A stretch of DNA of 64,000 nt from the NCBI RefSeq assembly GCF_018736105.1, contig NZ_CP076135.1, forward strand, positions 1,114,001-1,178,000, given 5' to 3'. This stretch comes from Bradyrhizobium sediminis (GTDB taxonomy: Bacteria > Pseudomonadota > Alphaproteobacteria > Rhizobiales > Xanthobacteraceae). Within the stretch, counting starts at the first letter, position 1. Every line of letters begins with the position of its first letter. Position numbers and translations under genes: made by a program. This document shows positions 27,995 through 55,978 of this stretch, piece after piece. Under the pieces are notes generated by a model that did no database searches, was not told the DNA's origin, and was given only the letters and a program-made list of their open reading frames with translations.

Positions 27995-28071
27995 TGGAGG
28001 CCCGGCCTGGATTCGAACCAGGATAAAGAGCGATGCACTGCTCTCGCGTCGACGCTTTCCGCCACCGGGCC
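27995..28071 (-). tRNA. tRNA-Cys-like gene with an 8-nt anticodon loop
   Basis: A 77-nt minus-strand cloverleaf. The acceptor stem GGCCCGG/CCGGGCC pairs fully, the discriminator is T (the Cys identity base) and CCA is encoded. The T arm is canonical (CCTGG-TTCGAAT-CCAGG). The anticodon stem AGAGC/GCTCT closes an 8-nt loop AGTGCATC, in which T33 would be followed by GCA, the Cys anticodon; position 37 would then be T rather than a purine. The D stem has only three pairs (GCG/CGC) and the D loop lacks the usual GG. It is either a divergent functional tRNA-Cys or a decaying copy. Confidence 0.7.
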
Positions 28072-51426: not shown

Positions 51427-51454
51427 TTGACAGGGAACTTTAGTTCCTTATCCT
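51427..51454 (+). promoter_or_regulatory. Sigma-70-type promoter of the wHTH-HNH module
   Basis: TTGACA (51427-51432), 16-nt spacer, TATCCT (51449-51454). The expected transcription start, about 7 nt on, coincides with the ATG at 51461, which also lacks a ribosome site, so the first gene may be translated from a leaderless mRNA. Confidence 0.6.
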
Positions 51455-51460
51455 CACTCT

Positions 51461-51775
51461 ATGTCTGATGATACTGAAATCCTGCGGGAAATTCGCGATC
51501 TGCTGCGACTGATCGCTGAACCCGCACTCGCCAAGAGAGATGAGCGACTTCGAGCATCGCTTCAGGAGCTAGTTGGGAAAAGTAAACAAAAGGCAGAGGC
51601 GGTCGTCCTTATGGACGGCACGCGCTCGCAAGCTGACATTCGAAAAGCTGCTGGCATTGACCAGGGAAACTTAAGTCGCCTCGTCACGGCCTTACGTCAG
51701 ACGGAATTGATTGGTCCTGATGAAAAGCGCCCAGAGCTGGTTTTCCCGCGCCTTCGAACCTCATCGATAATGTAG
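51461..51775 (+). CDS. Small winged-helix-like protein 1 of tandem cluster
   Basis: A 104-aa protein. The N-terminal helix EILREIRDLLRLIAEPALAK is followed by a second helix and then a HTH-like unit (AVVLMDGTRSQADIRKAAGI, DQGNLSRLVTALRQTELIG) and a short wing (KRPELVFPRL). It shares this layout, including the L-DGTRSQAD and NLS-LV patterns, with the next two proteins, so the three are paralogues. DNA binding is inferred. There is no ribosome site; a promoter lies directly upstream. Codon use is richer in A/T than in neighbouring genes. Confidence 0.8.
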   Translation: MSDDTEILREIRDLLRLIAEPALAKRDERLRASLQELVGKSKQKAEAVVLMDGTRSQADIRKAAGIDQGNLSRLVTALRQTELIGPDEKRPELVFPRLRTSSIM

Positions 51776-51788
51776 GCAACGCCAAGAA

Positions 51789-52115
51789 ATGAGCGATCAC
51801 TCTGCACAAATGTTGTCGGTTCTAGCAGAGATGCGCGATCTTCTTCGCTTGATTGCCGAACCCGCAATTGCTCAGCGCGACAAGAAACTTCGTGAGGCGT
51901 TACTCGTCATTGGCGGGAACGCAACAAGCAAGAAAGCAAAGGCTATCCTTCTTTTGGATGGCACAAGGACTCAGGCAGACGTCACCAAGGGCTGTGGCAT
52001 TAGTAAAGGTAATCTCAGCGGCTTGGTGAAGGAGCTGAAGGCTGCAGACTTACTGAAAGGTGATCCCAAACAGCCGCAACTCGCAATTTCGATTCCAGCC
52101 AATTTCTTTGAATAG
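51789..52115 (+). CDS. Small winged-helix-like protein 2 of tandem cluster
   Basis: A 108-aa paralogue of the preceding protein, 13 bp downstream of it. Shared landmarks: MLSVLAEMRDLLRLIAEPAI, AILLLDGTRTQADVTKGCGI, SKGNLSGLVKELKAADLLKG. It ends with IPANFFE, a motif repeated at the end of protein 3 (IPLNFFE). It is probably a DNA-binding subunit; no catalytic residues are visible. The ribosome site is weak. Confidence 0.8.
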   Translation: MSDHSAQMLSVLAEMRDLLRLIAEPAIAQRDKKLREALLVIGGNATSKKAKAILLLDGTRTQADVTKGCGISKGNLSGLVKELKAADLLKGDPKQPQLAISIPANFFE

Positions 52116-52123
52116 GAAATTTA

Positions 52124-52456
52124 ATGAGCGAAAGTTCGGTCGAAATCTTGGAGACGCTGCGTAAGATCTATGGATTATTGGAATTGCTGGCCGAAGACAA
52201 GATTGCTCAGCGCGACGCAAAGCTGCGCGCGGCCCTACGTGAAATCGTCGGCACAAGCTCTGCCAAGCAGAAGTCTGTGTTCTTGATGGACGGAAATCGA
52301 ACGCAGGCTGAGATACATAGGGCAGCATCGGTGAACCAGGGTCACTTAAGCACCATGGTCAGCAAGCTTCACAAGGAGAAATTACTCGTTAGCGACACGA
52401 AGAAGCCGAAACTGAATTTTTCGATACCTCTAAACTTTTTTGAGAGCAATGCATAA
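52124..52456 (+). CDS. Small winged-helix-like protein 3 of tandem cluster
   Basis: A 110-aa paralogue starting 8 bp after protein 2, with AGGA 7 nt before the ATG. Landmarks: ILETLRKIYGLLELLAEDKI, SVFLMDGNRTQAEIHRAASV, NQGHLSTMVSKLHKEKLLVS and IPLNFFESNA at the end. The first two paralogues differ from it at many positions, so the duplications are not recent or are under diversifying change. It overlaps protein 4 by 8 bp. Confidence 0.8.
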   Translation: MSESSVEILETLRKIYGLLELLAEDKIAQRDAKLRAALREIVGTSSAKQKSVFLMDGNRTQAEIHRAASVNQGHLSTMVSKLHKEKLLVSDTKKPKLNFSIPLNFFESNA

Positions 52457-52790
52457 GCAAAGTGAAGAGAAGCTTTTGGAAGCCATTCTTGAGATTCGGA
52501 ATTGGATTCGCGCGGCTGCTCACGGCCCGGTAAAGACGTCGCTCGAAACAGCGCTTCCCGATTCGAAATCGCGTATGGCGTACCAAATGCTCGATGGCAA
52601 CGCGTCGATGGACCAAGTGCGCATCGCTTGCAAAATGAGTCCGAATGCTGTTGTCGCTTTGGCGAACCGCTGCACATCAATGGGGTTGATGGAGGCTAGG
52701 CAGGACAAGAAGCGCATTAGGCTCTTCGACTTGTCTGATTTCGGTCTTATTGATGCTAACAGCTCGACTAAATCGGGGGAGAAGTCGTGA
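52449..52790 (+). CDS. Small winged-helix-like protein 4 of tandem cluster
   Basis: A 113-aa protein starting at ATG 52449 inside the end of protein 3. The layout is the same but more diverged: EEKLLEAILEIRNWIRAAAH, then AYQMLDGNASMDQVRIACKM (LDGN aligning with the MDGT/LDGT of the paralogues) and SPNAVVALANRCTSMGLMEA. It ends with a polar tail. Its stop overlaps the GTG start of protein 5 (GTGA). Confidence 0.75.
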   Translation: MHKQSEEKLLEAILEIRNWIRAAAHGPVKTSLETALPDSKSRMAYQMLDGNASMDQVRIACKMSPNAVVALANRCTSMGLMEARQDKKRIRLFDLSDFGLIDANSSTKSGEKS

Positions 52791-53185
52791 GCGACAAGCG
52801 GCCCAAGAAAGATGCTGTCGAAGTATCATCGCAACCGATTCAAGATGAGCTTGGCGCCATCAAAGATCGTCTGAGCGCGATCGAAACGATCCAGAGCATT
52901 TCAAACGCGCCAGTTGTAAAACAATATGTTCAAGAACATCTCAAGACGAAGGACGCACAAAGGATTATGAAGGAGTGCGAGGAGCCAAAGACCAAGTCGC
53001 ATCTTCAAACGAAATTTGATTACAAGAGCAAGCAGGCGCTAGACCACCACCTTAAGCCGCTGCGCGATGCCGATCTGATCAGGGAGAAGGTCGAAGCCGA
53101 CGGAACAATCGTATTCGAGTGGAGCAACCTCTTTCGCCGCCTTCCAAAATCGACGATTAAGTCGATACTCGGTGATACGAAATAG
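52787..53185 (+). CDS. Small winged-helix-like protein 5 of tandem cluster
   Basis: A 132-aa protein with a GTG start at 52787 behind GGGGGAGA. The N-terminal helix (DELGAIKDRLSAIETIQSIS) may be a coiled coil. The middle has AQRIMKECEEPKTKSHLQTK and the recognition-like stretch SKQALDHHLKPLRDADLIRE with a wing KVEADGTIVFEWSNL, a winged-helix pattern. It is the most diverged of the five and is rich in Lys. It lies 15 bp before the HNH gene. Confidence 0.75.
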   Translation: MSDKRPKKDAVEVSSQPIQDELGAIKDRLSAIETIQSISNAPVVKQYVQEHLKTKDAQRIMKECEEPKTKSHLQTKFDYKSKQALDHHLKPLRDADLIREKVEADGTIVFEWSNLFRRLPKSTIKSILGDTK

Positions 53186-53200
53186 CTGGGGCAATCTCAG

Positions 53201-53812
53201 ATGAGTGAAGCAAAGCCCGGTGAACGCAAAAATCTGCCGCTGAAAACGCAGGTTATCGTTCTGACCGAATCGGGATATCGCTGCGCCGTTCCGACCTGCC
53301 GTAACATCCTAGCACTCGACATGCATCATATCTGGGAAGTCTCCAATGGAGGCAGTAACGACCCTTCCAACTTGATAGCGCTGTGCCCGACGTGTCATGC
53401 ACTCTACCACCGTGGAACTATAAAAGCCGACTCCATTTACGCATACAAGGCGATGTTGGTCGCGATCACGCGCGCCTTCGACGTTGAAGCGATCGACCGA
53501 CTGCTGTTCCTCGAGTCCTGCAAGAAGGATTTCCTCGTGGTTTCCGGTGATGGTCTCCTGCATTTCTCCCGCCTTATCGCTGCCGGACTTGCAACCGTAG
53601 AGCAAAAATCAAACAACAATTGGCAATTTGTCACATATGCCGTGAACATACATGACAAGGGGCGTCAACTGATTGAGGCTTGGAAACAAGGCGATCGCAC
53701 GCGCCTTCGGCAGGTGATGGGGGGTGTCATTCCGCGCGACACGTCCGTCAGCGTTCGCCCCCAATTGAGTAGGAAAGCCCAGGCACGAAAAAGTGCGCAT
53801 CCGAGCGGGTGA
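53201..53812 (+). CDS. HNH nuclease with C-terminal winged-helix-like region
   Basis: A 203-aa protein. The HNH/McrA-type core is complete: zinc Cys pair CAVPTC, HHIWEVSNGGSNDPSNLIAL (His-His and Asn), second Cys pair CPTC and the last His in ALYHRG. The C-terminal half (DFLVVSGDGLLHFSRLIAAG, VNIHDKGRQLIEAWKQG) looks like another winged helix, as in the five preceding proteins. A DNA nicking or cutting enzyme is expected. It is the last gene of the cluster and the only predicted enzyme in it. Confidence 0.88.
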   Translation: MSEAKPGERKNLPLKTQVIVLTESGYRCAVPTCRNILALDMHHIWEVSNGGSNDPSNLIALCPTCHALYHRGTIKADSIYAYKAMLVAITRAFDVEAIDRLLFLESCKKDFLVVSGDGLLHFSRLIAAGLATVEQKSNNNWQFVTYAVNIHDKGRQLIEAWKQGDRTRLRQVMGGVIPRDTSVSVRPQLSRKAQARKSAHPSG

Positions 53813-53849
53813 CGCCGTCCGCGCCGGCCACATTTCATTCCGCGACATC

Positions 53850-53929
53850 GCCCGCCGGGATTGATCGCCAGCAGGCCGCCGACCACGGGCGCCGCCAGCG
53901 TTGTTCCCGCGGCGAGGTGGATCGCGAGC
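53850..53929 (-). pseudogene. Decayed fragment of the membrane protein gene at 54556-54924
   Basis: This 80-bp stretch aligns to 54771-54850 with about 70 identical bases and no gaps; on the minus strand both encode VVGGLLAINPGG. The rest of the gene is missing here. It lies 38 bp after the HNH gene, so it marks the right edge of the wHTH-HNH module. Confidence 0.8.
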
Positions 53930-54555: not shown

Positions 54556-54924
54556 CTAGTGTCGGGCGCCGGCGCGCGCCGCGCCCCGGCCGATCGGCTG
54601 CGTCGCCAGCGTCGGTGTGCCCCGCGGCGGCTTATCGCCATCCGCTTGCGGCTGCCCCATCGCCATGATCGCGGTGCCCATCGCGGTCGAGCCGAAGGTG
54701 ACGATGAAGCCGAACAGCAGCAGTCCGAGCGCCGTGCCGGGCGAGCTATCGGCGAAGATCAGGTCGCGCAGCCCGCCGGGATTGATCGCCAAGAGGCCGC
54801 CGACCACGAGCGCCGCCAGCGCTATTCCAATGCCGAGGTTGATCGCGAGCAGCCGGAACAGCGGCACGCGCCAAAAGCGAAAACGCCGGGACGTTGACTC
54901 TTTTCCTTGCATTTCGTTCGGCAT
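54556..54924 (-). CDS. Small two-span membrane protein
   Basis: A protein of up to 122 aa. A basic N-terminus (KESTSRRFRFWRVPLF) precedes two hydrophobic spans, RLLAINLGIGIALAALVVGG and ALGLLLFGFIVTFGSTAMGT, and a polar tail. An ATG at 54912 is an alternative start to 54924. A decayed partial copy of its first span is at 53850-53929. Function unknown. Confidence 0.7.
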   Translation of the reverse strand: MPNEMQGKESTSRRFRFWRVPLFRLLAINLGIGIALAALVVGGLLAINPGGLRDLIFADSSPGTALGLLLFGFIVTFGSTAMGTAIMAMGQPQADGDKPPRGTPTLATQPIGRGAARAGARH

Positions 54925-55177
54925 GATCGTTTGCCTGCAATAGCCAAAACTTGTCGCGTCAGTTCGCGCCTCGGCCGCGAATTATTATGCATGGCAGATT
55001 ATCAAAATTATGGCCGATTGCGATACGTGCGGCGAGGGGGGCAGTCATGACGGAATCATGGCTGAGCCCCCGTGATCCCGGCTGGATTGGCGCAGCCCTC
55101 GAAGACCGAGGTCGGACGTGGTAAAAGCCAGTGGATTGCATCCCGTGTTCCTTCAGCGCCACTCAGGGAATTTCCTG

Positions 55178-55978
55178 ATGACCAAGAGTAAGTCATTTAC
55201 CACGGCCAAATTCCTGACATTGGCCATGCTCGCATGTTTGAATTCACAAGCCCACGCCGCGCAATGCGGCAGCACCGCCGCCGGCTACGAAGGCTGGAAG
55301 CAGCAATTCGCCGGTGAGGCGCGGGCCAAGGGCATCAGCGCCTCGACTATCTCGGCCCTGATGGCGACGCACTACGCGCAAGCGACCATCAATGCCGACC
55401 GCGGCCAGCGCAGCTTTTCCCTCTCGCTCGACCAATTTCTCGCCAAGCGCGGCGGGGCGGCCATCGTCGCGCGCGGGCGTTCGCTGAAGCAATCGCAGGG
55501 AGCGCTGTTTGCTTCCATTCAGGCGCGCTACGGCGTGCCGCCGGGACCGCTCATCGCTATCTGGGGAATGGAGACGGGTTTCGGCAGCCAGCGCGGAAAT
55601 CAGAACATGCTCGCGTCGATCGCGACGCTCGCCTACGACTGCCGGCGCTCGGCCTATTTCACCGAGCACCTTTACGCGGCGCTGCAACTGATCGATCGCG
55701 GCGCGCTCTCGCCGGCCCAGCGCGGCTCCATGCACGGCGAGGTCGGCCAGACCCAGTTCATGCCCAAAGCCATCCTGGCCTATGGCACCGGCAATCTCGA
55801 GAACGCCGCCAACGCGTTGACCTCGACCGCGAACTTCTTGCGGGCGCACGGCTGGCGCGCGGGCGCCGGATACCAGCCGGGCGAGCCCAACTTCGCGGCC
55901 ATCCAGGCCTGGAATGCCGCCGGCGTCTACCAGAAGGCCATCGCGCTGATGGGCCGCCAGATCGACGGCGGCGAGTGA
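55178..55978 (+). CDS. MltB-type lytic murein transglycosylase
   Basis: A 266-aa protein. ATG 55178 is preferred (signal KFLTLAMLACLNSQAHA follows; GGGAA upstream). The SLT_2 domain has the catalytic Glu in AIWGMETGFGSQRGNQ, then STLAYD-like TLAYDCRRSAYFTEHLYAAL, and GEVGQTQFMPKAILAYGTGN. It cuts peptidoglycan in the periplasm to leave 1,6-anhydro ends. It is a paralogue of the next gene, 281 bp downstream. Confidence 0.92.
   Translation: MTKSKSFTTAKFLTLAMLACLNSQAHAAQCGSTAAGYEGWKQQFAGEARAKGISASTISALMATHYAQATINADRGQRSFSLSLDQFLAKRGGAAIVARGRSLKQSQGALFASIQARYGVPPGPLIAIWGMETGFGSQRGNQNMLASIATLAYDCRRSAYFTEHLYAALQLIDRGALSPAQRGSMHGEVGQTQFMPKAILAYGTGNLENAANALTSTANFLRAHGWRAGAGYQPGEPNFAAIQAWNAAGVYQKAIALMGRQIDGGE

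Follow-up and report, generated by a model that had tools for sequence, protein, structure and literature searches.

We analysed a 64,000-nt window of the Bradyrhizobium sediminis genome (assembly GCF_018736105.1, contig NZ_CP076135.1, positions 1,114,001 to 1,178,000), which carries a cassette of six open reading frames (ORFs) behind rpoD. All six lie on the + strand, between positions 51461 and 53812 (~2.4 kb), and encode five small proteins, P1-P5, followed by an HNH nuclease. P1 (51461-51775, 104 aa), P2 (51789-52115, 108 aa) and P3 (52124-52456, 110 aa) form a single family, hereafter wH1-3. P4 (52449-52790, 113 aa; ATG start, with a TTG at 52440 also possible) is a diverged relative of these proteins, P5 (52787-53185, 132 aa, GTG start) presents a weak ArsR-type helix-turn-helix (HTH), and the nuclease (53201-53812, 203 aa) ends with a predicted winged helix and a variable tail. 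The genes are separated by 13 bp (P1/P2), 8 bp (P2/P3) and 15 bp (P5/HNH) or overlap by 8 bp (P3/P4) and 4 bp (P4/P5). Their G+C content ranges from 0.49 to 0.54, against 0.635 for the window. An earlier note, made from the letters alone, had described six same-strand genes with gaps of 8-15 bp or overlaps in DNA poorer in G+C than the preceding rpoD, and these values agree with that description.

P1, P2 and P3 are paralogues with 46-52% mutual identity, and a search of their own genome with P2 returned these three proteins only. The earlier note had called them clear paralogues with IPxNFFE ends: the paralogy holds, but this C-terminus is restricted to P2 and P3, and P1 ends instead with RLRTSSIM. 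The first-gene counterparts of P1 present a PxxFF ending in four of four aligned loci. At the tail of P1 (51720-51775), an alternative frame spells a PxxFF-like string by eye, and this tail may be frameshifted. P4 and P5 had both been proposed to be diverged versions of P1-P3. This was borne out for P4 (hhalign E 1.8e-5, probability 78%, 89 columns, 24% identity) but not for P5, for which we detected no sequence relationship to P1-P3 (E 0.21). P5 matched the ArsR-type family HTH_20 at 6.2e-4, under the Pfam cut-off, and there is weak evidence in its sequence that it may be winged-helix-like. Every Pfam and NCBIfam match listed for P1-P5 fell below the curated cut-offs, including those to MarR and ArsR regulator families. 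The sole small protein that we modelled, P2, was predicted to fold into a 41-residue N-terminal helix followed by a winged helix (pLDDT, predicted local distance difference test, 87). The fold anticipated by the earlier note is thus present in the one model available, and P1, P3 and P4 are predicted to share it by homology.

The sixth protein is composed of an N-terminal HNH domain (residues about 10-93) and a C-terminal winged helix (about 93-165). Residues C28, C33, H42, H43, N57, C62, C65 and H66 are invariant across 11 aligned members, and C65 is nearly invariant in a separate set of 18. The predicted catalytic and zinc-binding residues are intact, and the C-terminal domain was modelled as a MarR-like winged helix with moderate confidence (pLDDT 72.6), in agreement with the initial description of this protein as an HNH nuclease with a winged-helix C-terminus. 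Among the best 120 of 1294 relatives, the C-terminal winged helix (residues 111-150, entropy 0.15-0.64) was approximately as conserved as the nuclease part. The nearest solved structures by HNH-domain sequence were EcoKMcrA (6ghc, 1.8e-7) and the McrA protein of 5zmm (5.5e-7), which we take to be ScoMcrA. Neither an SRA domain nor another reader of modified bases was recognised by Pfam.

We then scanned genome contigs with the HNH alignment, which yielded 10 loci (L012-L021). Loci of Phycisphaeraceae (L013), Planctomycetota (L014) and Gemmatimonadetes (L016) presented two wH1-3 genes, P4, P5 and the HNH gene, and a locus of Opitutia (L018) presented two wH1-3 genes, P5 and HNH without P4. These four operons are composed of the same families as the window cassette. 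Another Planctomycetota locus (L012) starts at P4, and a different contig of that genome (L078) has two wH1-3 genes at its end. The wH1-3 family is represented by three genes in the window and by two in the other operons read; P3 shares 69% identity with the product of the second gene in the Phycisphaeraceae operon. Matches to the wH1-3 profile were found in five of the 10 genomes, exactly the five carrying the operon, when leaving out a 20-residue match with a stop in genome G794. Scattered small proteins never found with the HNH gene would have contradicted the earlier note; instead, wH1-3 proteins co-occur with HNH in these five genomes and nowhere else among the ten. The HNH gene was found without the small proteins in the whole genomes of L015, L017, L019 and L020, and L021 is a short and doubtful HNH match. 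Stand-alone relatives of the HNH-winged-helix protein were located at L015:10001-10552 (a Chloroflexota genome), L017:3859-4392 (a Moraniibacteriota genome) and L083:6179-6751 (a 13-kb stretch from the phylum of L018, where a DUF4062 gene follows the HNH gene).

Outside L018, P4, P5 and HNH share 65-83% identity with their window counterparts; in L018, identity drops to 44% for P5 and 55% for HNH. Fourfold sites of conserved residues agree at only 16-52% per gene for P4, P5 and HNH, and the combination of high protein identity with low fourfold agreement indicates purifying selection on these genes. The wH1-3 genes show conservation too, but evolve faster (46-69% identity to the best window match). 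In this comparison, any stop inside a compared stretch was treated as X; the second L078 gene is cut off by the contig end. The flanking genes differ from locus to locus. Because the gene order recurs across phyla, the cluster is not a product of chance, and we conclude that it is a compact, horizontally spread unit. The multi-gene system proposed in the earlier note is well supported by the conserved order, the overlapping genes and the purifying selection.

The protein database contained 199 relatives of P2, 1294 of HNH and 522 of P5 at E <= 0.001. As a proxy for co-location, we counted relatives lying on equally sized contigs, using the best 120 matches listed for each protein; sizes were typed by hand, only sizes of at least 2000 were kept and matches lacking a size were omitted, which left 73, 77 and 70 distinct values. 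Among the matches listed, 12 contig sizes were shared by P2 and HNH, 18 by P5 and HNH, 20 by P2 and P5 and seven by all three, against 0-4 per pair when sizes were shifted by 1-7. One of the seven triple-shared sizes corresponds to a 5.5 Mb contig of Rhodopseudomonas palustris, whose HNH record is from strain BisB18.

Sequence entropy was unevenly distributed along the small proteins. Across the best 120 of 199 relatives of P2, the N-terminal helix was conserved at residues 11-30 (mean 0.35-0.36) and the HTH block 61-70 was variable (1.47), with intermediate values for the remainder of the helix (31-40, 0.85) and the recognition-helix block (71-80, 0.86). For P5 (best 120 of 522 relatives), entropy was lowest at residues 21-40 (0.21-0.31) and 111-120 (0.15) and, among full blocks, highest at 71-80 (1.24). 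A conserved N-terminal helix and a variable HTH are compatible with helix-mediated assembly and divergent DNA-facing surfaces, but constitute proof of neither.

The closest described systems differ from this cassette in several respects. Fusions of winged-helix and HNH domains have been reported to be type IV enzymes, and most of them have no methyltransferase beside them (PMC11037411). Both these enzymes and our protein are small nucleases combining HNH with a winged helix (here from a moderate-confidence model), but the HNH domain comes first in our protein whereas the names used in PMC11037411 place the winged helix first, and its operon also encodes four or five separate small proteins. 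A 2026 survey of BREX mentions HNH domains both on their own and in fusions with wHTH and SRA domains (PMC12839542). The HNH restriction enzymes that we compared keep their reader domains in the nuclease chain, whereas the cassette has separate small proteins. EcoKMcrA and 5zmm McrA have the HNH domains closest in sequence among solved structures; unlike in these enzymes, no modified-base reader was recognised by Pfam here and the domain joined to HNH is modelled as a winged helix. The protein likewise differs from Cap5 of CBASS (HNH-SAVED) by a winged helix in place of SAVED: its match to the SAVED_HNH model reached 11.6 bits over residues 52-71 only, and Pfam identified no CD-NTase among the six genes. 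Type II restriction-modification differs in that the six genes include no methyltransferase by Pfam, although methyltransferases lie near L016 and L019. P2 and the HNH C-terminus resemble MarR/ArsR regulators by their modelled fold; here, however, they belong to a conserved multi-gene unit with a nuclease and score below the family cut-offs. Relative to IscB, the protein is 203 aa long and only HNH is recognised by Pfam; Rfam detected no RNA in the window at gathering scores besides a tRNA. PADLOC system models gave weak matches only (HNH-type, CARF, Csa3; best 26.5 bits). As the earlier note had supposed, the layout matches no described system in PADLOC, Pfam, NCBIfam, PHROGs or the literature searched.

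The interpretation that we favour, to which we assign about an even chance of being correct, is a multi-subunit winged-helix reader that feeds the HNH-winged-helix nuclease and probably restricts foreign DNA. P1-P5 would assemble via their conserved N-terminal helices into a hetero-oligomer presenting several different winged helices. Together with the winged helix of the HNH protein, these would read DNA, whether through its sequence, a modified base or an unusual structure, and the reading subunits would position or license the HNH domain, leading to nicking or cutting of the DNA. The most likely purpose would be the restriction of incoming DNA. In logic this resembles modification-dependent (type IV) winged-helix-HNH enzymes, except that reading would fall to separate subunits. 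We infer that a complex forms, that it reads DNA and that it serves defence. The earlier note had proposed that the small proteins recruit or restrain the nuclease; since HNH relatives occur without them, they are not obligatory restrainers of such a nuclease. In a bolder and tentative version, which we consider possible but doubtful, P1-P5 and the HNH protein would form a single hetero-oligomer whose winged helices, up to six, jointly read an extended target. Such protein-only combinatorial recognition would let specificity change through the faster-evolving wH1-3 subunits, as exchangeable parts around a conserved nuclease core, and would represent a new kind of nuclease against foreign DNA. 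If true, bacteria of several phyla would possess a multi-subunit, protein-guided nuclease with independently diverging reader subunits. The compact size of the cassette (~2.4 kb) makes direct laboratory testing feasible.

An anti-phage role is plausible, and some neighbourhoods are consistent with it. Behind the L016 operon come a type III methyltransferase and restriction subunit, and matches to PDC-M57A/B and PDC-S02 lie further on. Among loci with HNH only, L019 is near a type II methyltransferase, L017 near PDC-S45, L074 near an AbiLi-like ATPase, L077 near a HamB-like helicase and L083 near a DUF4062 protein. We compared ORFs of at least 120 aa within 6 kb of 14 HNH loci to those of 13 stretches of the same genomes. 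ORFs were chosen mechanically, spurious ones included, and the window, the viral loci L022-L025, L021 and the stretch L090 were left out (L090 as a possible part of the L017 contig; the start of L017 had no match in L090). PADLOC matches at E <= 1e-50 were found for six of 123 neighbours and one of 87 control proteins, assuming that families of one system match one protein. Several results temper this reading. The enrichment gave a one-sided p of 0.14 by protein and of 0.10 by locus (five loci; 0.048 if the sixth protein, PDC-S13, lies in a further locus), and additional control proteins matched PADLOC at the looser threshold of 1e-20. Moreover, L016 alone among the six operon copies shows defence neighbours, and the window copy is outside any evident defence island. 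The association with defence is thus suggestive only. A stronger enrichment had appeared among neighbours picked by eye and was not borne out by the controlled scan.

Alternatively, the HNH-winged-helix protein alone might be a modification-dependent (type IV-like) endonuclease, with the five small proteins acting mainly as regulators that lower its expression or activity. We regard this as unlikely. It agrees with the HNH relatives lacking small proteins (the four whole genomes above and, within its 13-kb stretch, L083) and with the winged-helix-HNH fusions reported to be type IV enzymes, most of which lack an adjacent methyltransferase (PMC11037411). A regulatory role, however, would seldom call for as many as four or five co-transcribed small proteins whose order is kept over several phyla, and the conservation of P4 and P5 nearly equals that of the nuclease. 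Upstream of P1, a weak promoter-like site (TTGACA-16-TATCCT, 51427-51454, + strand) with sigma-70-like hexamers encloses the palindrome GGAACTTTAGTTCC between them, in favour of this reading, but this palindrome was absent from five other loci compared. The P1 ATG lies 6 bases past the site, which makes a near-leaderless transcript possible; one such site was found, against a mean of 1.7 in shuffled sequence.

A DNA repair or recombination nuclease module spread by transfer, with no defence role, appears less probable still. The window copy adjoins housekeeping genes, rpoD and presumably dnaG, and a glyoxalase-type gene rather than known defence genes, and the enrichment above is not significant by protein. 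A very sporadic distribution speaks against such a module: P5 was found in one of 391 genomes of the family and its profile in one of 397 genomes of the order, the own genome each time. The HNH protein matched seven of 60 relatives at E <= 0.001, with at most 45 bits outside the own genome. At E <= 1e-15, its profile was found in 4/299 genomes of the phylum (three distant ones with 69-86 bits) and in 3/294 of the phylum of L014; at E <= 1e-20, it was found in 1/240 and 2/230 genomes of the phyla of L016 and L018, respectively (centre genomes included throughout). P5 and P2 had no matches in plasmid and viral collections.

Finally, a selfish, self-spreading homing-type HNH cassette is very improbable: the low-G+C insertion after rpoD, beside a truncated DCC1-like gene and with its edge at the HNH stop codon, would fit, but neighbouring genes differ among loci, Pfam finds no integrase or transposase among the six genes, the only flanking repeat is a 14-base match explicable by chance, and homing enzymes need no conserved winged-helix partners.

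The right edge of the cassette is marked by what is left of a DCC1-like oxidoreductase gene: 12 codons, AVRAGHISFRDI (53814-53849, + strand), starting one base beyond the HNH stop codon. The cassette has thus taken the place of the front part of this gene, or pushed it aside, and ends with the HNH gene. A DCC1-like frame with an early stop lies directly behind rpoD in the relative G1373 (L071), and an intact gene (PF04134, 4.8e-19) lies ~500 bp past rpoD in G001 (L072). The strict DCC1 motif pattern was found in six of 29 relatives, with L046 as a seventh carrying a variant. G1369 (L069) carries, ~700 bp after rpoD, a gene that matches LMT1 (window 55118-55978), presumably a lytic transglycosylase; this spacing is too short for the cluster. 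The sequence of one relative, L049, matches both 53852-53929 and about 54595-54870, and the former stretch therefore appears to duplicate part of the adjacent small-gene region. Elsewhere in the window, ARAGORN identified a tRNA-like gene at 27995-28071 whose anticodon has four bases (tgca); this gene is absent from the Rfam list at gathering scores.
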